This document shows, one piece after another, positions 11,566-60,210 of a DNA stretch of 64,000 bases (within the stretch, counting starts at the first letter, position 1; every line of letters starts with the position of its first letter). The position numbers and the translations under genes were made by a program. Source of the stretch: Asterias amurensis (lineage: Eukaryota > Echinodermata > Asteroidea > Forcipulatida > Asteriidae); NCBI RefSeq assembly GCF_032118995.1, contig NC_092663.1:2294001-2358000 (forward strand). Reading direction: 5' to 3'. The notes under the pieces were generated by a model. It had not been told where the DNA came from. It saw nothing but the letters and a program-made list of their open reading frames with translations, and searched no databases.

Positions 11566-12770
11566 GTCATTTTAAACAATAAATTATAATGTAAAAAAAA
11601 AGTATTTAAAAGTATTATTCCTTGTGTACATTATGACGACAGTTGCATTATTTTGAGTGAATTTCAATTAAAGTTGAAAAAACTGTTAATGTTTTGTGAA
11701 ACTGAGATAAAACGTGTGTGATATGTCTTTTATTTTCTTGTTTGAATTATATTAATGAGAGGGTGGTCAAGGTAGCAAAACAAAGCATTGTGTATACACA
11801 GAAGATTGGTGATCCTATGTGACATAACAGAGATTCAACGTAAACGCGCAGAAAGCAGTGTATGTTCTGTCGCAGAGAGTTGTTCGTGTACAAAACAATA
11901 TGTTGAACAAAATCCTTCAAATAAATCTACTGTTGTGCCACAGAGCTTCTACATTTTAGCCAACATCAATTACAGTGGATTGTGCTGTGAAGGTACAGTA
12001 CACATCACAGGAGATTCTGATGTTGATGCACAGTGGAAAATCACAGTTGAATCTTCTGTAGACAAAAGTAGCCTCCGTAATGCCAATTGACAAAACAAAC
12101 TACTGTAAATTAACAACATTTTTTTTAACAGTGTAGATTGGGTTTTCAGTCCGGACTTTGATCGCGTTGGTTTTCCCCTTTGGGCATAAATATGGGTTGT
12201 TTCTATAACAATGATAAATGTAATCTCGTTTTATATTCATTGGCGCTAACTGTGTCAATTAATGCGATACATCGAACCAAAACTTGAACTACAAACATAA
12301 ATTAGCATATCAATGCATCTGGCAAAGTTCCCACTCAACTCAAACCTCGAACAGAACTAAAAAAACATGAACCCTTCTCTATTAATATCCCGATTCCTGG
12401 AACCGGACGTGTTTTTTCTTGAAACCACAGCAACGACAACAAGGTGAGTTCGTGTACATAAGCACAACCATCCAATAAACGGGCCCCAAATTGACAACTG
12501 CGCCATCAGGAGTATTTAATCAAGAGTTGCAATAGTTTTGTCATCACTAATTTTGGAAGCCTCCTGATCAACGAAACCGCACTAAAGAACAGTCTTCAAC
12601 TAACCATGGGGATAGGCTTGATAAAAGGTGGGTCTTTTGGCAAACAAATTAAAAGTTCTAGCAAAAAAATTAATCTGCCTTTTTATTTTTCCAGTTCCCT
12701 CCTTTTGATTAATTTATTGAAACGATGATTGTCTGTATCATTCATTATGTTCTGTAGCTTTTAGTGACTT

Positions 12771-13339: not shown

Positions 13340-13605
13340 CATATGTTTCTGAGTAAAGAACTACTTTCAAAGCATTCTCTGTTTGAAAAGTGTTTGCCTT
13401 CAAAGTTGCTGAAATTGAACCAATCACTTCAGCTCACCTATGTTTCTTAATACAGAATTTATCTCAAAGCATTCTGAACATACTTGTCGCCAAACTCGCT
13501 GAGATCGAACCAGTCTCTTCACCACACCTATATGTTTCTTACCACAGATTTAATCTTTAAACATTCTGAGAAGTTTGACCAAAATTTGTTTTCAAACTTG
13601 TTAAC
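13340..13605. repeat. Degenerate ~110-bp tandem repeat, left part
   Basis: Successive units share CTCAAAGCATTCTG, a gap, then CGCTGAGATCGAACCAGTC, CACACCTATATGTTTCTTA and ACAGATTTAATCT. The array breaks off inside TTCAAACTTG at about 13600 and resumes at about 14800. Confidence 0.7.
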
Positions 13606-14799: not shown

Positions 14800-15015
14800 G
14801 TTAAACCAGTCGCTTCAGCTCACCCGTGTTTCTTACTACAAAATCGCTGAGATTTAACCAGTAGTTTAACCACATACCATGTTACTTACGACACAGAATT
14901 AATTTGAAAGCCGTCTGATAAGTTTGACAAATTGTTTTCAAACTTGCTGAGATTTAACCAATAGCTTCAGCACACCTATTTTATTAATACATAAAAATAA
15001 TCTCAAAGCATTCTT
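14800..15015. repeat. Degenerate ~110-bp tandem repeat, right part
   Basis: Resumes with TTAAACCAGTCGCTTCAGCT, then GCTGAGATTTAACCA, TTTTCAAACTTGCTGAGA and CTCAAAGCATTCT, the same unit as at 13340-13605. A further decayed unit may lie at 16023-16085. Confidence 0.65.
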
Positions 15016-16183
15016 ATATCGTAGCGTCATACGATATCGACCCTCATATGTTTTCGAACCCCCCAACTTTGATTACCGTTTACCGCGAGATTGTGCAAGC
15101 TGCACCAGTGACAGAAGCTATGCAGTTTACTCACGGTCTGTATTTTCATCAGGCTTAATCATGCCGAGAATAAAGTTTCCTGACGTTGGTTGTGCTCAAA
15201 TATTTATAAAATGATTGATTTTTGATACAGATCACTAGTGCATTATTATGCCAACATTCAAATGAGTCAAAGAAACATAATCCAACCTCAAAAGTTCAAA
15301 ACAAAATTACTATCTGCTAGATTGAGTTTCATTCTGCTTTAGTCACTAGATGGATCACGTGAGGTGGTTACTATTTGGGATTCTATGGTGTGCCAGTATG
15401 ATGACAAAATTAAAATATTTTAAGTGAAAATGGCAACAATTTTTATTTTTTATTAACTGCATACTGTAACTAAATTCCGATAAGCGTAAAAAAAAATATT
15501 ACGTCTATATTAAAGAAAATATATCATAGTTTGGTTTCTTATCTCCTGAAACAAAACATAACTGGTCTAAAATGGGGGGAAACGGATTGTTATGAAGTGT
15601 GTGTGTTTTAAGGGGTGGAATGTTTTACCACCATGCCTTATCTCGATTCTAATATAGTAGCCATAATGCCGTGAGACAAAAATGTAATTAAATTTGTTAA
15701 GTATAGTAATTGAATAATCTTTTTGATTTATTTTGCACGCCATACTAGCTTCGGAATATTCAATAAAATACCAACCAATGAAAGGTGTGAAAACATATGA
15801 CGTTGCTCCAATGTCATGCATGCATAAGCACTGTTAATGGTGGACTGTCTCTCGCAACGTAAAACCAAAACTTCACAAATTTCAACACACCAGGAAGTGT
15901 AAGTGTTATTGTTAAACAATTGGATAGATGATTTGAAAAAAAAACATTCAGTTTTTGATTGTGAAATTTTTTCCTGTTATCCTACTGAAAACACATGACA
16001 CCAGGATATATATATTTTTAAATTGTCTTGCAACTTTCTGACATTAAAACAGTATCTTGAGCACACCTATATTGCTGTTAAAGCCTTGAGCGTCACTGAT
16101 AACGGATGCGCGTTTATAACAAGCAACTATTATCTTAAAATAAAAAATATTTTAATCGTGTTTCTAAACTGTTTTGCATGCAG
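15016..16183. other. No gene seen; upstream region of the lysozyme-like/VWA gene
   Basis: The start-codon exon of the downstream gene should be here or further left, but I could not choose one. The region shares ordered blocks with 26590-26900 (see findings), for example CCAACTTTGATT, GGTTTCTTATC, and CATGACACC(A/T)GGATA. Confidence 0.4.
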
Positions 16184-16623
16184 TTGCCCTATTGGGCTCT
16201 TTGATGGTCGCTTGCTTCATCAAGCAATCACTGGCTGGTACGGACAACACCATCGTCCCAGGAGCTTTCGGTCCTGATGTCGTAGATGCCACCATCGGCA
16301 AGATAGCAATAGTTGAACAGGCCAGCCAACTCGAACCGCACGACAGGATTCTGATTCGCATAGCATGGGTAGAAACGCAGTTCGGCACTGCACAGCGCAC
16401 TGACCCTAACTACTACGGTGGGATATGGCGTGTCGATCGTGATATGTTTGATGTTACTTTGGGCATGTTAAACATGGACAGATACAGTGATATATTTTTG
16501 GCGATTTTAACTTACCTGGGGATAAAATGGGTCCAGTCTACTTGGGAAGACTGCCGTCAACCTTTGTACTCCGGTCTTGCTGCCCGTCTATTTCTTCACA
16601 ACGCCAACCCGATCATTCCACCG
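16184..16623 (+). CDS. Exon: signal peptide and lysozyme/SLT-like domain
   Basis: Preceded by a pyrimidine-rich tract and GCATGCAG; followed by the consensus donor GTAAGTGG at 16624. It enters in phase 1 (needs one base from an upstream exon) and leaves in phase 0. The Glu in WVETQFG is placed as in bacterial lytic transglycosylases, where an ES/ET dipeptide carries the catalytic Glu, and GGIWRVD may stand in for their GLMQ segment. The domain's C-terminal helix (SVEQQAIYWRDNYP) is in the next exon. Open alternatives are a catalytically dead lysozyme-like fold or another all-helical domain. Confidence 0.6.
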
Positions 16624-19600
16624 GTAAGTGGCATTGATATCGTGGCTATCAAAGGGTGTACGTTTGGTATCTCTCCCTGAATAAATGACAATAAAAACTT
16701 ATTTCTTATAACGTAAGTCTCATGAATTGTGTACCCCGTGCATGGTGGTAGAGTTTAAAGGGGTGCTATATTTGCTGTCATTTATTTCGGATATATGTAT
16801 TGAACATCAATAAAATGTGTTTTGTTTTTTCCCCGACATATCTCACTTGCGTAATTAGCGAATAAGTCATGCCCCCCCCCCCCCCCCCTTTTGTGGATTG
16901 TTACCGCTCCCCTACCATCGACGTCACGTCGGGAATTCAAACATATCGTCGGCAAAAAGAGTCTGGTCCCTAACTACACGCGCCTAGGTACCAGGCCACA
17001 CAGTGCACACGTCTCTATATGCACAGCCAGGGGGCCCAACGGCTCGGGTTACCGACATGACGTCACGTTTATGCAAATGAAGGCTCCCTTTTAGGGGCGG
17101 GGTGGGTTCCCCTCATCTCTTGAAAACCATTTTTAAAATACTTGAGCATTTAATAAAAAATTTAAAAAAATATTTCAGGTTTAAAAAGTCAAGGTTAATC
17201 GTAGTTGGTTGTTTTTTTTGTTGGGGTGTGTGTGTGGTTGGTTTTTTACAGTTTTTGTTTTGCCCGTCTCGCTTTGATCTTTATATTTTATATGATGTAT
17301 TGAAATATGCATTGTTTTATGATTTCATTAATGTCTTATAAATATTAATTTGGAACAACAAGTAATTTTTATTAGAACCAACACAACTCGAAAGAAATTT
17401 ATTGTGCATTGTTAAGATGATCAGAGCATACTGATCAAAACTGTGATTTGTCAACCATCAGGCCCAATTCCGTAATTACTAAGCACACACATTTGCTTTG
17501 CATGAAATTTCTTCCTTTACCAACCAAATTTCCGTTTGTTGTTTATTGCTTGTTACTTGTATTCAGCTGTTGTTTGCTTATCCTGAAAATCACGTGGAAA
17601 TTTGGTAGGTTTTCCTGTTTTTATCAAGGAAGAAACTGGCGTCATCATGCTAAGCAAATTTTTGTGCTTAGCAGCTCTATGAAATTGTGCCAATAGTTCT
17701 TTTCACAGATCCAACACTACACAAAAAGAAATTTACAAGTGATTTCTTTTGCTGTTTTTTCTAACTCCGTTACTACAGGGCTGGTCTGTGGAGCAACAAG
17801 CAATTTATTGGCGAGACAACTACCCACACGATCCTCCTACTGGTGATGTGACGTATTTTTCCGAAAGAGTTGCAGAATTACCAGGTAGGTTGTTTACAAC
17901 CAAGAGGGCGTTTTTGTTTTTGTGTTTCAAAGGGGGTGATGTTTTATGAGGGGGATATTTTTTGTAATTATTTTCTAGTTCATTCAGCAGAGCTGGCACT
18001 CTTTAAAATAAAAAATAAAAACTTACAACAACCAAATCACAACTCTTATGGAAAGGACTCTCTGCAATGCCTGTAAATCTCTCCCAACTGGCATTAGTGG
18101 AGATATCAAGTCCAAGGGGGCGAAGACTGATTTCATTTCAAAACATCTTTCCAAAGATCAAAATAAAACTTTCCTATCTGAGATTGTTGCGAGCTTCGCT
18201 GGTAAGTAAAGTTAAATGTACATTAAGCTAGTTTTACATAACCTATTATACACGTCAACTTATTATACACGTCATCACGCGATTTATTTTATTAGATACT
18301 TTTCTTGAAACTAATCGGGCAATAAAACAATCAGTGTTACCATTTTAATTGTTGATTTTCTTTTATTTCACCAGGATGTACAAACAAGGGCATCGATTTG
18401 GTCTTTGTAGTTGACAGTTCTGGAAGTGTTAAACCAAGTAATTTCGAGACGTCCAAGCAATTTGTCAATGACATTGTCGATTCATTTGAGATTGGTAGCG
18501 ATCGCACACGCGTTGGAGTCATTCAGTATTCCTCCTCTGTTAACATCGAGTTTCACTTGAACCAATACACGGATAAAAGTTCACTTCAACAGGCGATTAG
18601 TAGTATAAATTACATGGGTGGCGGTACTAATACGGAGGGGGCTTTGAATGTCATGGTAGATGAAGGTTTCAGTGTTACAAACGGAGCCAGGGAGCTTGGT
18701 ATCCCTCGGGTGGCAGTTGTTCTAACAGATGGTCAATCACAAGGAGCTGACCGTGTCCGTGTGCCAGCAGACAGAGCCCGCGAAAAGGACATCATAATAT
18801 TTGCCATCGGTGTGACGGCAAACATTAATAAGGCTGAGCTGAACGCCATTGCAAACAAACCGAGCCATATCTACGTGTTTGAGGTTAGCAATTTTGATGC
18901 TATCGCAGCAATCGGTGCTATACTCCAAGATACCGCATGCGATCGTAAGTATTTTCCATGAATGTCTGGTCTATTAAAGGGACACACCGGCCGAATTGGG
19001 CTATTTGGGCTACAAAATAGACTAAGCTGTGACTTCAACAGTCTTCCAGGAATAAAGAAGAACAGTCTTTAAAAAAAATCATCAAATTAAGCCGTTTTTG
19101 AGCATTTTAAGACAAAAACACAGGTCGCGTGATTGTTCTAACCAAAAAGTGGTACAAACAATCACGTGACCTTCCGGGCTAGTTTTACTTGCAGCCGTCT
19201 AAAAGTAACTTACTTAACCAAATTTAAATCTTTTTTTTACAAAATTATTTACGAATAATTGACGAAAAAGATCATGTATTCAAATTATCGCTACAAAATG
19301 TAAATAATGGTGAAATTTGTAACATAAGATTCACATTCAAAGAGTCCGTGTAACTGAAGCTTGTTATATGGCCGCTTTGGTTTTTAAAATCATTTTTCGC
19401 TAAATACGTGACATTTTGATGATTTTTGTTTACAGCAACCATGTATAAAAACATTATTTATGATTCTCCACCCCTTAATTGCGTAAACGGTGAGCCGGTG
19501 TGTCCCTTTAAAGGAACATTACATATTTTTTTGGCTAACAAGTAATCCACCATATTTACATGAAAAAAACTGAAGAATTTTGCGATCGATCAGCCATCTG

Positions 19601-20831
19601 GGTCACGAAACATAGTGAAAAACTATCACGGTGCTGGGACGCATACAACAGCCACAGCCAGGAACACCGGGGCGAATCCCTTCTCTTTTCGATAAAAAGA
19701 TGTGACTAACGGTTTTACGTCCCATCCAAAGGGCGAAGCAATGAGTAAATGTCTTGCTTAATTAAGGACAAAAGTGTCACGGTTGGGATGCGAGCCCCCA
19801 CGTTCTTGGCACACCGTTTTCCACGCTCCCTCTACGACACACAGTTACTTCACTTGATGTTGAACCCACACCCCGATGACCTAACCACTAGAACTTTAAT
19901 CGGACGCTCTAAACAGCTCGACCATGAAACCCTTTATTTTGTAAAAAATATAGTCTTCAATGCTTAAGATTTGTTTGGGTTTTCAGAATCTGCTGAGCTG
20001 CCTCCACTCGCCGAGCTCAACGGTACAATCGGAGAAAACCAAACACAGAACTTCGTCCAAGACATACCTCCAGAAGGTACCACCATTATTCTCCGAACAG
20101 CTAATGGTGCTGTAGTCATGTATGGATCCAAAACCATCGAGATACCCAACTCGGCCCTCAACGATTTCAACCTGACAGCCATCGAGGGACAGGGCCCCGT
20201 GGAGATCTTCATTGGAGAAGGCTTTTTTGGTAGTTTGCCCGGCCGTAGACGACGTCAGGTATGACTTTCAACTTAAAATGTTTTCAAAGACCAGTATACT
20301 CACTTGGTGTTTCCGAACCAAAAATTTAACAGATTTGTAAAAATTTGGACTCAATTGGTCATCGAATTTGCAAAAGAAAAATGTAAGAAAAAACACCCTC
20401 GTTGCATTAACACTTTGTGTGCTTTCGGATGCATAATAAAAGGCTCCAGCTGAACTGTTTTATCATTAATATTTGTTTGAGAAATTATCTTTTCTCAAAA
20501 ACTACTTTTTGTTTTTCTTTTTCTTTTTCTTCAGATGCCTAATCAGAACGACACGAAAGCGAACAATGAAACAATCGGCAACCTGTATATCAGCATCGAG
20601 GGAAAGCAAGCAACCAATGTCTTCTCATTGGTTACAGCCGAGGGTGACGTCACCAAACCAGAAGCCACCGAACCGGGAACCACCCAACCGGAAACTACCG
20701 AACCAGAAGGCACCCAACCCGACACCACCAAACCTGACAATGGAGTTGGCATGGTCACTACGACAGTGCCATACATTGCTCTGATTATTCTGATTGGAGT
20801 AATTATTGCTCATTTGGCAAATGCACTTTAA
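16184..20831 (+). CDS. Secreted/GPI-anchored protein: lytic-transglycosylase-like domain + VWA domain
   Basis: Exons by frame and splice borders: 16184-16623, 17779-17884 (or to 17888), optional 18056-18201, 18375-18944, 19987-20258 and 20535-20831 (TAA end). An earlier exon must supply the Met, because no in-frame ATG precedes VALLGSLMVACFIKQSLAG, which reads as a signal peptide. Order: signal peptide; SLT/lysozyme-like domain with candidate catalytic Glu in IAWVETQFG, then YYGGIWRVDR and SVEQQAIYWRDNYP; an optional segment with CNACK; VWA with MIDAS DSSGS, GGGTNTEG and LTDGQ; a segment ending LPGRRRRQ (possible furin site); a TEPxxT/TQPxxT stalk; and a terminal hydrophobic tail VPYIALIILIGVIIAHLA with no basic cytoplasmic end, favouring GPI. 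About 611 residues with the optional exon, 561 without. It probably acts at the cell surface, in matrix or in defence; this is inferred. Confidence 0.8.
17460..17691. mobile_element. Palindromic element, family C (copy C1), intronic
   Basis: Left end GGCCCAATTCCGTAATTACT, right end CAGCTCTATGAAATTGTGC. The arms carry CTAAGCACA...CATGAAATTTCTTCC and its inverse. It lies in the intron after the lysozyme-like exon. Confidence 0.8.
18056..18201 (+). CDS. Probable alternative exon (Cys-pair segment) of the VWA gene
   Basis: Open for 48 codons plus split codons, flanked by GGAAAG/G and G/GTAAGT. The frame that matches the VWA exon reads TLCNACKSLPTGISGD... and ends SEIVASFAG. The CxxCK start recalls saposin-like or other small disulphide domains, but no confident match is claimed. 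Inclusion needs the upstream exon to use the donor at 17889 (AG/GTTGTT), four bases past the better donor at 17885; skipping it with the 17885 donor is also in frame. Confidence 0.5.
18375..18944 (+). CDS. Exon: von Willebrand factor A domain with complete MIDAS
   Basis: Encodes CTNKGIDLVFVVDSSGS at the start and about 180 further residues of a canonical VWA fold. All three metal-ion-dependent adhesion site elements are present: DxSxS (DSSGS), the Thr in GGGTNTEG and the Asp in VVLTDGQ. The alternating hydrophobic strands and helices (VGVIQYSS, VAVVLTDG, IIIFAIGV) are standard. Leaves in phase 1 at C/GTAAGT. VWA domains of this type bind protein ligands through a divalent cation. Confidence 0.95.
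18974..19511. mobile_element. TTAA MITE, family I, intronic
   Basis: TTAAAGGGACACACCGGC at the left and GCCGGTGTGTCCCTTTAA at the right: 18-bp perfect terminal inverted repeats with TTAA at both edges. An internal hairpin CGCGTGATTGTTCTAACC / ACAATCACGTGACC lies near 19130-19170. It lies in the intron directly after the VWA exon. Confidence 0.9.
19610..19900 (-). mobile_element. tRNA-derived SINE, family G (reverse copy), intronic
   Basis: Reversed, it carries the shared tail (GAAAAGAGAAGGGATTCGCC, GTTGTATGCGTCCCAGCACC) and the TGTCCTTAATTAAGCAAGAC segment. The tRNA-like head is diverged compared with the copies at 42.2, 44.2 and 51.6 kb. Confidence 0.65.
20275..20515. mobile_element. Diverged partial family A MITE, intronic
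   Basis: Shares TCAAAGACCAGTATACTCAC, GTAAAAATTTGGACTCAATT and TTGCATTAACACTTTGTGTG with family A, with clear divergence and without the right end. It forms much of the last intron. Confidence 0.55.
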
Positions 20832-28213: not shown

Positions 28214-28749
28214 AATTGTTCAGTTGAAATGTTTATCTCAAAAAGTTCGATTAACAAGGTGAATAAATGCACACAAAAAAAGGACTAATATTTGACTCAG
28301 GATTGTTTGATTTGTTGGTTTCTTGAGTTCAATGCAGTATTTTCAGAGTCCATTGTCATGTGACAAACTACTTAAGGATAAAATCCTTGTATTTGTTAGG
28401 TGGTTTGATGTCTGATCTAGAACGAGGGGATTTCACTGAACTTTTAACGGCCACCAAACTCTGCGCTTACGTTCACCATACGGTAGGTCGAAACAGCTAT
28501 ACTCAACCGAGTGCACGAATAGTTGCTTGTGTATCGACCTATATTGATAGTTTTGAAACTCTTTGATTTATTTGCCGCTGTATTAGGTAGGTCGCAACAC
28601 CGAGTGTTTCGAATACCGTGATGCGTAACGAATGAGTTGTGGAAATGTGGTTCGTGTGGTAGCAGACATATTGGTTGCTTTGAAACGCTTTGTTCTACTG
28701 GGCGCTTTAGTCTACGAGGAACGCAGAGTGAAAAAAGGTCTGCACAGCA

Positions 28750-30147
28750 ATGTATTTTTACGGAGGAAATTCTGAGAAGTGGTTGAGAGTTTCCACAAGT
28801 ATTGGTTGTCTATATTTGGAAAGCTGTTTGCATGGCGCAGTGGTGCCTCTTCTTACCGAAGTGCAGTGGCAACATCAGCAGAGCAGTAACGCCACTATCG
28901 GTGAAATACCAAAAGGTTCAGCTGCATCATTCGCCTTAGCCGCCATGTTCGTGTCCACGGGATTGTTGGAGGTATTATTCTCACCGATTGCCGGTTTAGT
29001 TGCTGACCGGTGGGGACTCGATGCAGTAGTTCTCTTCGGTTTGCTTTGTTCTACATTCAAATGTCTTCTCTACGGACTTGCACCTTTTACTCCATTTATT
29101 CTAATGACTAACCGTTGTTTGCAGGGTGTGATGAGCGCGTGCACCCAAACCATGGCCATGGCTAGGATTCGAGACGTCTATGACGAAGTATCACTGGAGT
29201 GCACGATAGTAATTGGAGTGGCAATGTGTAAGTTGTCTTTCAGTTTATTCGCGGGCTTATTCGTAGGCGAGATCTTCCGGTATCTCGGCAGCGAAGTTTT
29301 CCTCTTATTCCTGCCTGTTGATGTAATACTCATTGCGGGCGTGCTGTTGACATTTCGAACTGAAAATTTCCACAAGGATGAGACTAGGTCTGAGGTTGCA
29401 GGAAGACAAGTCGACACGAAGAATCAACGTTCTGTGCGATGGCGAGCCCTTTTCGATGTCCAAGTGTTGATTGTCGTATTCGGTATCTTGGTAGTTAGTC
29501 TAGGACAAACGTCACTCGAACCTTCCCTTGAAATTTGGGTTCAGTTTATGTTTGGAGAAGGTACAGTATCGACGGCGCACATACTTGGACTATGTGGATG
29601 CTCTGTTGTAGTGAGCACCGTATGCTGCACCTATGCCCTCGGCACCTTCAGCAAAAACTTGACGTGGATACTCTGCTTTGTGTCTCTTTGCATAGCAGGA
29701 CTACCCTTGGTGCTTGTTAAATTCTCCCCATCTCTCATCGCAGCATCAACTTACTTGGCTGTGTTTTTCTTCGGTTTACAAGCATCTCGTCTGATATTAA
29801 TCACCATGTGTTCTATGATCGCTGTGGTGCGATATCCTGAAGCATACGGCTTTGTGTTCTCCCTCGTGAACTTTGGTTGGGGTGCTGCATTCCTCATTGG
29901 ACCACTCGTAGCCCCGTTTCTATTTGAATCTGCCTGTGCCATCTGTATGATTGGTGTAGCTTGTATTTTAACAGCTCTACTGACATTTTTTCTCCAGCAT
30001 TTGGACTCCAAAGATGGACTTTACTTCATGGATTGCATCTCTTGCAAGGCCTTTAATGGTGATGGATATCAGTTGATTGCAACTAACGAAGACATTCTAT
30101 TTACTTATGACCAAAAACAGGTTATGATTCAAAACATCGATAAATAA
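28750..30147 (+). CDS. SLC18-like (VMAT/VAChT-type) MFS transporter, intronless
   Basis: A 465-residue single-exon gene, close to the usual SLC18 length. The ATG is the first after an in-frame TGA at 28726-28728. Twelve hydrophobic segments fit an MFS fold. SLC18 landmarks: LYLESCLHGAVVPLL in TM1, motif A variant FSPIAGLVADRWG after TM2, NRCLQG in TM4, EPSLEIWV in TM7 and YGFVFSLVNFGWGAAFLIGP in TM10. The family exchanges cytosolic amines or acetylcholine for protons across vesicle membranes. Aligned by eye with VMATs, the TM1 Asp is Glu, the TM2 Lys (FASKAVMQ) is Thr (FVSTGLLE), and the TM10 Asp (IADVAFCMG) is Asn, so substrate and coupling may differ. The C-terminal tail (DGYQLIATNEDILFTYD) has tyrosine- and acidic-type sorting candidates. 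It may be a retrocopy or, like vertebrate VAChT, naturally intronless. Exact subfamily uncertain. Confidence 0.8.
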   Translation: MYFYGGNSEKWLRVSTSIGCLYLESCLHGAVVPLLTEVQWQHQQSSNATIGEIPKGSAASFALAAMFVSTGLLEVLFSPIAGLVADRWGLDAVVLFGLLCSTFKCLLYGLAPFTPFILMTNRCLQGVMSACTQTMAMARIRDVYDEVSLECTIVIGVAMCKLSFSLFAGLFVGEIFRYLGSEVFLLFLPVDVILIAGVLLTFRTENFHKDETRSEVAGRQVDTKNQRSVRWRALFDVQVLIVVFGILVVSLGQTSLEPSLEIWVQFMFGEGTVSTAHILGLCGCSVVVSTVCCTYALGTFSKNLTWILCFVSLCIAGLPLVLVKFSPSLIAASTYLAVFFFGLQASRLILITMCSMIAVVRYPEAYGFVFSLVNFGWGAAFLIGPLVAPFLFESACAICMIGVACILTALLTFFLQHLDSKDGLYFMDCISCKAFNGDGYQLIATNEDILFTYDQKQVMIQNIDK

Positions 30148-57950: not shown

Positions 57951-58918
57951 ACAACTCCGACGGGCAACTCACAAATACGACGGACAACTCACAACTCTGA
58001 CGGACAACCCACAACTCCGACGGCCAACTCACAACTACGACGGCTTAACTCACAACTCCGACGGACAACCCACAAATCCGACGGCCAACTCACAACTACG
58101 ACGGATCAACTCACAACTACGACGGACAACTCACAACTACGACGGCTCAACTCACAACTACGACGGACACTCACAACTACGACGGCTTAACTCACAACTA
58201 CGACGGACAACACACAACTCCGACGGCCAACTCACAACTACGACGGTTCAACTCACAACTCCGACGGCCAACACACAACTCCGACGGCCAACACACAACT
58301 ACGACGGACAACTCAAAACTCCGACGGCGAACCCACAACTCCGACGGACATTTCACAACTCCGACGGCCAACTCACAACTCCGACGGACAACCCACAACT
58401 CCGACGGCCAACTCACAACTACGACGGCTTAACTCACAACTCCGACGGACCCCACAACTCCGACGGCCAACTCACAACTACGACGGATCAACTCACAACT
58501 ACGACGGACAACTCACAACTACGACGGCTCAACTCACAACTACGACGGACACTCACAACTACGACGGCTTAACTCACAACTACGACGGCTCAACCCACAA
58601 CTCCGACGGACAACTCACAACTACGACGGCTTAACTCACAACTACGACGGCCAACTCACAACTACGACGGCCCAACTCACAACTCCGACGGCCAACTCAC
58701 AACTACGACGGCCCAACTCACAACTCCGACGGCCCAACTCACAACTCCGACGGACAACCCACAACTCCGACGGCCCAACTCACAACTCCGACGGCCAACT
58801 CACAACTCCGACGGCCCAACTCACAACTCCGACGGACAACCCACAACTCCGACGGCCAACTCACAACTCCGACGGCCCAACTCACAACTCCGACGGCTCA
58901 ACTCACAACAACGACGGA
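57951..58918. repeat. 20-bp minisatellite, about 48 units
   Basis: The unit is CAACTCACAACTMCGACGGC with 19-21 bp variants. Two main variants (CTCCGACGG and CTACGACGG) alternate irregularly, and larger blocks of several units recur, for example the CTACGACGGATCAACTCAC block near 58098 and 58478. Because 20 is not a multiple of 3 and lengths vary, the frames through it are not protein-coding. Confidence 0.95.
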
Positions 58919-59235
58919 GGCTGTCCTCTATGGAACACCATAAGATGCACCAAAAAGTAAAGAAATGGTTAAGAATAGAGATAGATCCATTTTGGGTTAA
59001 AGATGGTATAAACAGTTTGCGACAGCTCGTTCTGTTTTCTGATTTAATACGTTTTACTTATTTTGAAGTCTATTAATGTAAAGTTGATTTAATGTATTTT
59101 TGTTCCAATGAATTCTTCCTGGGTTTTTTTTATGTTAATTTGATCGACAGCTTTATGTGAAGTTGTTGTATAGTGTGGCTTCCAAGAGGCACTCTTTAAT
59201 CTTGACTTTCCAAAGCAGGACTTTCTATCAGCTCT

Positions 59236-59619
59236 TTAAAGGCAGTGGACACTGTTGGTAATTGTCAAAGACTTCACAGTTGGTATAAATTATCTCAACA
59301 TATGCATAAAATAACAAACCTGTGAAAATTTGAGCTCAATCGGTCATCAAACTTGCGAGATAATAATGAAAGAAAAAACACCCTAGTCACACGAAGTTGT
59401 GTGAGTTTAGATGGTTGATTTCGAGACCTCAAGTTCTAAACTTGAGGTCTCGAAATCAAATTCGTGGAAAATTACTTCTTTCTCGAAAACTATGGCACTT
59501 CAGAGGGAGCCGTTTCTAAATGTTTTATACCGTCAACCTCTCCCCATTACTCGTCACCAAGAAAGGTTTTATGCTAATAATTATTTTGAGTAATTACCAA
59601 TAGTGTCCACTGCCTTTAA
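59236..59619. mobile_element. Palindromic TTAA MITE, family A (copy A10)
   Basis: Full length, TTAAAGGCAGTGGACACTGT to AGTGTCCACTGCCTTTAA. The internal hairpin GAGACCTCAAGTTCTAAAC / TTGAGGTCTC is perfect. Confidence 0.9.
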
Positions 59620-59908
59620 GGCTGGAATGCACTTTTTTTGGTCAAACTTTTACCAATAATTTTGTAGGTTAATTTTTTTAAAGAAGTTGAAACTGAAAGT
59701 AGATTAAACCCTGTGCTTAAACAATATCAACATAATGATCATACTTCGTGACCCTGAAACACTCATGTGATGTGTGATCCAATTATGATCCCATGCAATC
59801 AAACGGATATCAAAGGCAAGTGTGTCTAGTCTTGGCTCAAGACGTCAGTTGTAAATCTCCATAGCACACCTTTTTAAGCTCACCAGTCAAGTTGGTTAAA
59901 AATCATGT

Positions 59909-60210
59909 TTAAAGGCAGTGGACACTATTGGTAATTACTCATTACATAATAACATTATGAGAAACAGCTCCCTCTGAAGTGACATAGGTTTTGAGAAAGG
60001 AGCAATTTTCCACGAATTTGATTTCGAGACCTCAGATTTAGAATGCGAGGTCTCGAAATCAACCATCTAAAAGCACACAACTTCGTGTGACAAGGGTGTT
60101 TTTTCTTTCATTATTAACTCAGAACTTTGACGACCAATGAGCACTATTATGTTGAGATTCACCAAGAAAACTGGTCTATGACAATTACCAATAGTGTCCA
60201 GTGTCTTTAA
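59909..60210. mobile_element. Family A MITE with internal deletion (copy A11)
   Basis: TTAAAGGCAGTGGACACTAT to AGTGTCCAGTGTCTTTAA, 302 bp; interior reversed relative to A10. The pair is 290 bp apart and in opposite interior orientation. Confidence 0.85.

Follow-up and report, generated by a model that had tools for sequence, protein, structure and literature searches.

In bivalves, GH24 phage-related lysozymes fall in a phage clade nearest to marine phages, and have gained introns and been duplicated (Ren et al. 2017, PMC5303276). The same study describes fusions of these lysozymes to the animal genes PGRP, MALRD2 and HSPG. Animal GH23 lysozymes, including the placozoan PLys, have likewise been ascribed to bacterial transfer in a further study (PMC12855814). 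Rusticalin of ascidians joins a phage-endolysin-related domain to an animal part (PMC6339383), and GH25 muramidases are a further precedent (PMC4241558). For arthropods, HGT-chimeras have been described, animal genes fused with horizontally acquired fragments (PMC13389597).

We analysed a stretch of 64,000 nucleotides (the window) from contig 16 (C16) of the 491.5-Mb, 23-contig genome of the starfish Asterias amurensis. The last contig of this genome (16,427 bp) carries mitochondrial genes in its first 9,900 bases, open in the echinoderm code. The window contains a real gene of six exons, which join in phase to give a predicted protein of 568 aa. Its features are as follows (window positions):

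12606..12627, + strand: exon 1, the first coding exon, with the ATG at 12606 and the beginning of the signal-peptide-like segment; phase-1 end; found in five of five copies
16184..16623, + strand: exon 2, remainder of the signal-peptide-like segment and the greater part of the lysin-like head
16240, + strand: start of the head within exon 2
16372-16374, + strand: Glu codon of the head, in exon 2
16429-16431, + strand: Arg codon replacing Gln, in exon 2
17779..17884, + strand: exon 3, C-terminal end of the lysin-like head
17824-17826, + strand: Pro codon replacing Asn, in exon 3
18375..18944, + strand: exon 4, VWA domain (Pfam PF00092) with DSSGS, GGGTNTEG and LTDGQ (complete MIDAS) and a Cys on either flank
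19987..20258, + strand: exon 5, a segment with no assigned fold, RRRR-Q at its end
20244-20255, + strand: furin-type site RRRR, present in four of four complete copies
20535..20831, + strand: exon 6, end of the segment, TEP/TQP stalk, hydrophobic C-terminal tail and stop

A sequence-only reading of this DNA had let the gene start at 16184. This position turned out to be a splice acceptor, and the true coding start lies at 12606, in an exon 3.6 kb upstream that was detected by comparing the upstream DNA among the copies of the gene. Exon 1 supplies the start codon and completes the signal-peptide-like start (MGIGLIKVALLGSLMVACFIKQSLA); the conservation around it extends upstream to 12511 in all five copies and includes noncoding sequence. 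Splice signals and compatible phases were found at all five exons described earlier (16184-20831). The motifs read beforehand from the letters (WVETQFG, GGIWRVD, DSSGS, GGGTNTEG, LTDGQ, RRRR and TEP/TQP, together with the hydrophobic tail) are all contained in the spliced translation.

Intron 1 harbours a repeat unit of about 100 bases, which contains CTCGCTGAGATT.AACCAGTAGCTTCAGCACACC and is located at about 13340-13600 and 14800-15020 of the window; among the matches listed, several occurrences of the unit are seen in the first introns that were compared. Elsewhere in the window, a 471-codon open frame without a stop (28732-30144, + strand) looks like an intronless MFS transporter. The window holds 46 ORFs with a length of 95 aa or more, of which one has a match to PF07690 (4.4e-22), another to Bcl-2 (1.5e-18) and another to inositol polyphosphate kinase (3.1e-25). 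The stretch 58001-60000 has a GC skew of -0.25 and an AT skew of 0.18, unlike the remaining window.

The encoded protein consists, in this order, of a signal-peptide-like start, a head of 164 aa (aa 27-190), the VWA domain, the segment with RRRR, a Thr/Glu/Pro stalk and the hydrophobic tail. The VWA domain is beyond doubt, with its match to PF00092 (3.8e-52), and its MIDAS is complete, with the DxSxS, T and D motifs present in the translation. The solved chains nearest to it are those of collagen VI, thread matrix protein and integrin I domains (60 of 106 chains listed at 1e-8). Hydropathy peaks at the N- and C-terminal ends are the basis for the putative signal peptide and the putative GPI anchor. 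RRRR and the hydrophobic tail are common to all four complete copies, and in three of these four an Arg is situated within the tail. From these features the product is probably secreted and located at the surface, and anchoring by GPI is plausible.

At least five copies of the head were found by searching the genome (10 exon matches; both counts are lower bounds). The two on C16 are separated by 214 kb, and C9 carries the other three inside about 48 kb. All five have kept exon 1 and the order head exon, head-end exon and VWA exon, and in four of them the last two exons are present as well; these four are open frames of 567-575 aa. The sequence-only reading had the exon 16184-16623 spliced to the VWA exon. 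Since the exon order recurs in five of five genomic copies, and all five exons in four of five, this splicing is well supported. In the remaining copy, C16b (C16:2092500-2112300), the last two exons were not found in the searched stretch, which holds no Ns. C16b, which has the first four exons, may thus be an incomplete duplicate or the gene of a soluble form.

The copies were compared by the method of Nei and Gojobori, without significance test. For the signal and head part, dN/dS was 0.25-0.36 in nine of ten comparisons and 0.54 in the closest pair, the window copy and C16b. For the VWA domain it was 0.21-0.46 in nine of ten comparisons, the value of 2.25 for the window copy and C16b resting on a dS of 0.016 and thus on too few changes to interpret. 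Between the two chromosomes dN/dS is well under 1. Head and VWA domain are most likely under purifying selection.

The assignment of the head to the Pfam SLT family did not stand. No match to PF01464 was obtained with the head at E values up to 10, and a search of the whole starfish genome for this family was empty at E 0.1; 8 of the 14 control genomes were positive in that search. Membership in plain SLT (PF01464)/GH23 was rejected on the missing Pfam match and on the changed Gln and Asn motif positions. Searches of Pfam, with its GH24 phage-lysozyme family, and of NCBIfam gave no match of any kind to the head, single-sequence searches of the PDB gave none, and collection scans using the starfish copies alone detected no relative. 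Two matches in a PDB profile search with the five paralogues (0.47 and 0.97) were taken as chance.

Entry to the family of the head was given by a weak tblastn match in a huge phage (1e-3). A match in a Nocardia plasmid (0.4) was dropped, as it is located in overlapping unrelated ORFs. Among the PHROGs the head matches phrog_3108 over most of the profile length, with 0.0038 for the window copy and 5e-6 and 9.1e-5 for two paralogues. The search of the starfish genome with phrog_3108 yielded no match, but the 14 control genomes were likewise silent, which makes this search void. Relatives of the head were then sought in viral and bacterial contigs and in phage and plasmid records. They were present in at least 121 of 600 stretches in a first scan of viral contigs (80 kept), in at least 376 of 456 in a second one (80 kept) and in 22 of 47 stretches of bacterial contigs. 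With tblastn, 18 phage records, including the query's own, and 181 plasmid records, 172 of them from Klebsiella, were found. The family is common on Klebsiella plasmid records, and 17 of the 20 listed are 47-80 kb long, like phage-plasmids such as phiKO2.

An HMM built from 93 unique non-animal domains scored the five starfish copies at 48.8-66.3 bits, whereas the best of 1000 shuffled sequences reached 3.8 bits; the relation to phrog_3108 is therefore far beyond chance. In a profile-profile comparison, starfish head and phage family matched with 99.1% (1.7e-18), and BLAST aligned 128 aa of the window head with the viral domain L157 at 35.9% identity (2.8e-20 with the database size set to 1e9). 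The head is homologous to the phage family phrog_3108, of which we are practically certain.

AlphaFold confidently predicts a helical head (pLDDT 89.6, pTM 0.88), in which Glu45 is placed at the end of the predicted helix 35-46. When the PDB was searched with this model, none of 101 fold matches reached E 0.001. The first 11 (GH23 chitinase, MltE, GH19 chitinase and phiKZ gp144; TM 0.23-0.45) all belong, as we take it, to the lysozyme superfamily. A single one of the 153 matches to viral models passed the E 0.001 threshold (5.0e-5); it is to an uncultured phage protein and has a TM of 0.80 on the query. A member of the phage family was modelled with a pLDDT of 95.6, and its top PDB matches were GH23 chitinase (E 0.093, TM 0.50), phi6 lysin, MltE and EtgA. 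None of its 77 matches reached 0.001; the first six are of lysozyme type and other folds appear from rank 7. When the phage profile was aligned with a profile of 18 SLT domains (18 of 21 SLT loci), its Glu and Gln coincided with the SLT motifs; the match had a probability of 2.3% and a score of 21.1, the best of 10 column shuffles scored 17.4, the reversed profile 14.9 and the starfish profile alone 16.5, which is below the best shuffle. The sequence-only reading had named a lysozyme-like fold with Glu in the cleft as what would support it. The Glu at the helix end and the leading place of the superfamily agree with such a fold, but the PDB matches are weak and fall short of E 0.001. We consider a divergent lysozyme-type fold likely, though not proven by these models. 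As a whole, the analysis supports the proposal that a secreted or surface protein combines a lysin-like head with a MIDAS-complete VWA domain, Glu45 of the head being at the end of a predicted helix.

Six residues, E45, Q64, R116, W139, N144 and G150 in the numbering of the window head, are constant in 114 of 114 non-animal domains. These are the 93 unique domains, from at least 102 loci listed, and 21 domains from 26 loci chosen among 80 listed; neither partial matches nor contigs already represented were counted. Part of the constancy of E and N reflects how the sequences were chosen, because the scan motifs held the Glu or the WKxxxN region. The second viral scan (376 of 456) tolerated R for Gln and P for Asn, and the set E, Q, R, W and N is likewise intact in six phage proteins obtained by motif-free tblastn. 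All five starfish copies retain E, R, W and G, and in all five Q64 is replaced by Arg and N144 by Pro. Lytic transglycosylases have a Gln in a GLMQ-type motif and an Asn in a YN-type motif. By analogy with them we assume that the Glu of the head is the acid and that the glycan is contacted at the Gln and Asn positions. As both residues are lost in every copy while the domain is constrained, an altered activity, or binding only, is suggested. Ordinary cutting of cell walls by the starfish head appears doubtful.

What the phage members of the family do was approached by way of their neighbours. In the open-access literature we found no function for a phrog_3108 protein in print, and among the matches listed no paper title deals with the function of phiKO2 gp54. 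In Salmonella phage PMBT28 the phrog_3108 gene directly precedes a holin gene (phrog_785, 6.6e-27) and an Rz-like spanin gene (phrog_89, 1.1e-5). In phiKO2, the protein encoded before gp54 (phrog_3108) is gp53, which is small, shows hydrophobic stretches by eye and belongs to a functionally unannotated PHROG. For three other phages (Vibrio phage 2.096, Shewanella phage 1/44 and Pseudoalteromonas phage B8b), the gene upstream is phrog_5076, which is not a known lysis gene and, where read, not membrane-like by eye.

A set of 83 neighbour proteins was collected from 38 of 46 representatives, excluding lysin proteins above 300 aa and neighbours above 260 aa; double family matches are possible in this set. 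With 25 of 51 matching families listed, most were functionally unannotated, holin families matched 5, 4 and 2 neighbours, one spanin family matched 2, and the structural families terminase small subunit, head closure and tail completion matched 1 each. A hydrophobic segment was present in 44 of the 83 neighbours versus 23 of 143 background ORFs, the latter being mechanically derived ORFs of at least 60 aa with lengths unmatched to the neighbours. All five large phage proteins scanned contain a phrog_3108 domain, four of them C-terminally, and two of the five, the viral proteins L058 (86-2893) and L070 (161-3538), combine the domain with a match to an endolysin-annotated family. In L154 and L155, the nearest to the starfish head, the domain is the C-terminal part of proteins of 229-258 aa, and the large ORFs adjoining them are without PHROG match. 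Since some phage members adjoin holins or spanins, a lysin role is suggested; the best reading, albeit not proven, is that the phrog_3108 phage proteins are endolysins or virion lysins.

A tree of 76 domains places the starfish copies together with the viral domains L047, L154 and L155 (92/90, just under the star level of the program), and all other rows of the enclosing clade (97/89) come from viral contigs. The tree was rooted by midpoint, and the starfish branch is long (1.81). A transfer from phage or bacteria to the animal is probable as judged from these sequences, and a phage source, direct or via a bacterium, would be the simplest account. Introns, chromosomal context and duplication argue against contamination, which was rejected in view of introns, animal chromosomes and at least five copies over two chromosomes.

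From these results we derive the following scheme, to which we give an even chance as the best explanation overall: a captured marine-phage lysin domain, altered at its site and fused to a VWA domain, would serve in the recognition of bacterial glycan. A phrog_3108 domain of a marine phage may have entered the lineage of this starfish horizontally, gained introns and been placed after an animal signal peptide and before the VWA domain, stalk and hydrophobic tail. Duplication of the fused gene would then have led to the five copies. The product would reach the cell surface, probably GPI-anchored, and cleavage at RRRR could free the part with head and VWA domain. The VWA domain may grip a ligand of host matrix or cells via the MIDAS metal, and the head may recognise a bacterial peptidoglycan-type glycan, with cutting altered or absent, as Gln and Asn are gone and Glu is kept. 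Bacterial recognition as the main role falls slightly short of an even chance. The more specific version, in which a disarmed phage lysin keeps fold and Glu, binds the bacterial wall uncut and acts, with the MIDAS VWA, as the pattern-recognition head of a furin-releasable immune receptor, is rather unlikely, at roughly three chances in ten.

Other readings of the head have to be weighed against this scheme. It could still be an active muramidase or lytic transglycosylase, which with the kept Glu and a rebuilt cleft would work as a tethered or released antibacterial enzyme. The retention of Glu, R116, W139 and G150 in all five copies and the sequence constraint on the head speak for such an enzyme, as does the bivalve HcLyso1, which lyses bacteria (PMC5303276). 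The Gln and Asn found in all 114 relatives are nevertheless Arg and Pro in all five copies, at positions that contact the glycan if the analogy with lytic transglycosylases holds, and we regard an active enzyme as unlikely. A scaffold or carbohydrate-binding module, serving matrix assembly or adhesion unrelated to bacteria, would agree with the changed site residues and with the resemblance of the VWA domain to collagen VI, thread matrix protein and integrin I domains among the chains listed, but the surface residues R116, W139 and G150, typical of the lysin family, are kept, which speaks against it; it is distinctly unlikely.

The origin of the head could also be read differently, as an old eukaryotic domain that was inherited by descent or that phages took over from eukaryotes. 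With its long starfish branch and midpoint root, the tree is compatible with either direction, and relatives were sought in viral, bacterial and plasmid sets. Phages and bacteria, however, carry a wide range of family members, and the starfish rows stand at a single place among viral contigs, so that we hold this descent to be quite improbable. An artefact, be it contamination, a pseudogene or the chance joining of exons from two genes, is hardly credible: the gene model rests on genomic sequence and C16b lacks the last two exons in the stretch searched, but five copies on two chromosomes share introns, identical order and phases, and four complete open frames coexist with the low dN/dS between the chromosomes.

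If the captured-lysin scheme is true, a starfish has independently acquired a probable marine-phage cell-wall lysin. A phage family without annotated function would gain a testable role (phiKO2 gp54, PMBT28), and the conversion of an enzyme to a receptor would have a test case, in which every animal copy of a domain still under selection differs from the relatives at two of their constant residues. We found no paper with this family, phylum, VWA fusion or these site changes in the open-access literature, although such a paper may still exist. The kind of event, capture of a phage lysozyme, is already known, whereas the family, the phylum and the VWA fusion appear to be new.

Compared with known systems, the starfish head shares its domain family, by sequence, with phiKO2 gp54 and the protein of Salmonella phage PMBT28. 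The phrog_3108 phage proteins have neither introns nor a VWA domain and keep Gln and Asn, and the starfish protein differs on each count. With SLT/GH23 transglycosylases and goose-type lysozymes the head has in common the helical fold, the Glu at a helix end and a weak PDB similarity, but it has no Pfam SLT match, its Gln and Asn positions are changed and the profile match is not significant. HGT-chimeras concern arthropods only, and by term search the main text of that study does not mention phage or von Willebrand (PMC13389597). Rusticalin is of a peptidase (A500-type) fold and without VWA domain, unlike the starfish protein (PMC6339383). The bivalve GH24 lysozymes resemble the starfish head in coming from a marine animal, in being phage-related and in their introns, duplication and fusions (PMC5303276). 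They are of the GH24 (T4-type) family, belong to another phylum, act as active enzymes and have no VWA fusion reported in that study (PMC5303276), whereas the starfish head is a member of phrog_3108 with an altered site.
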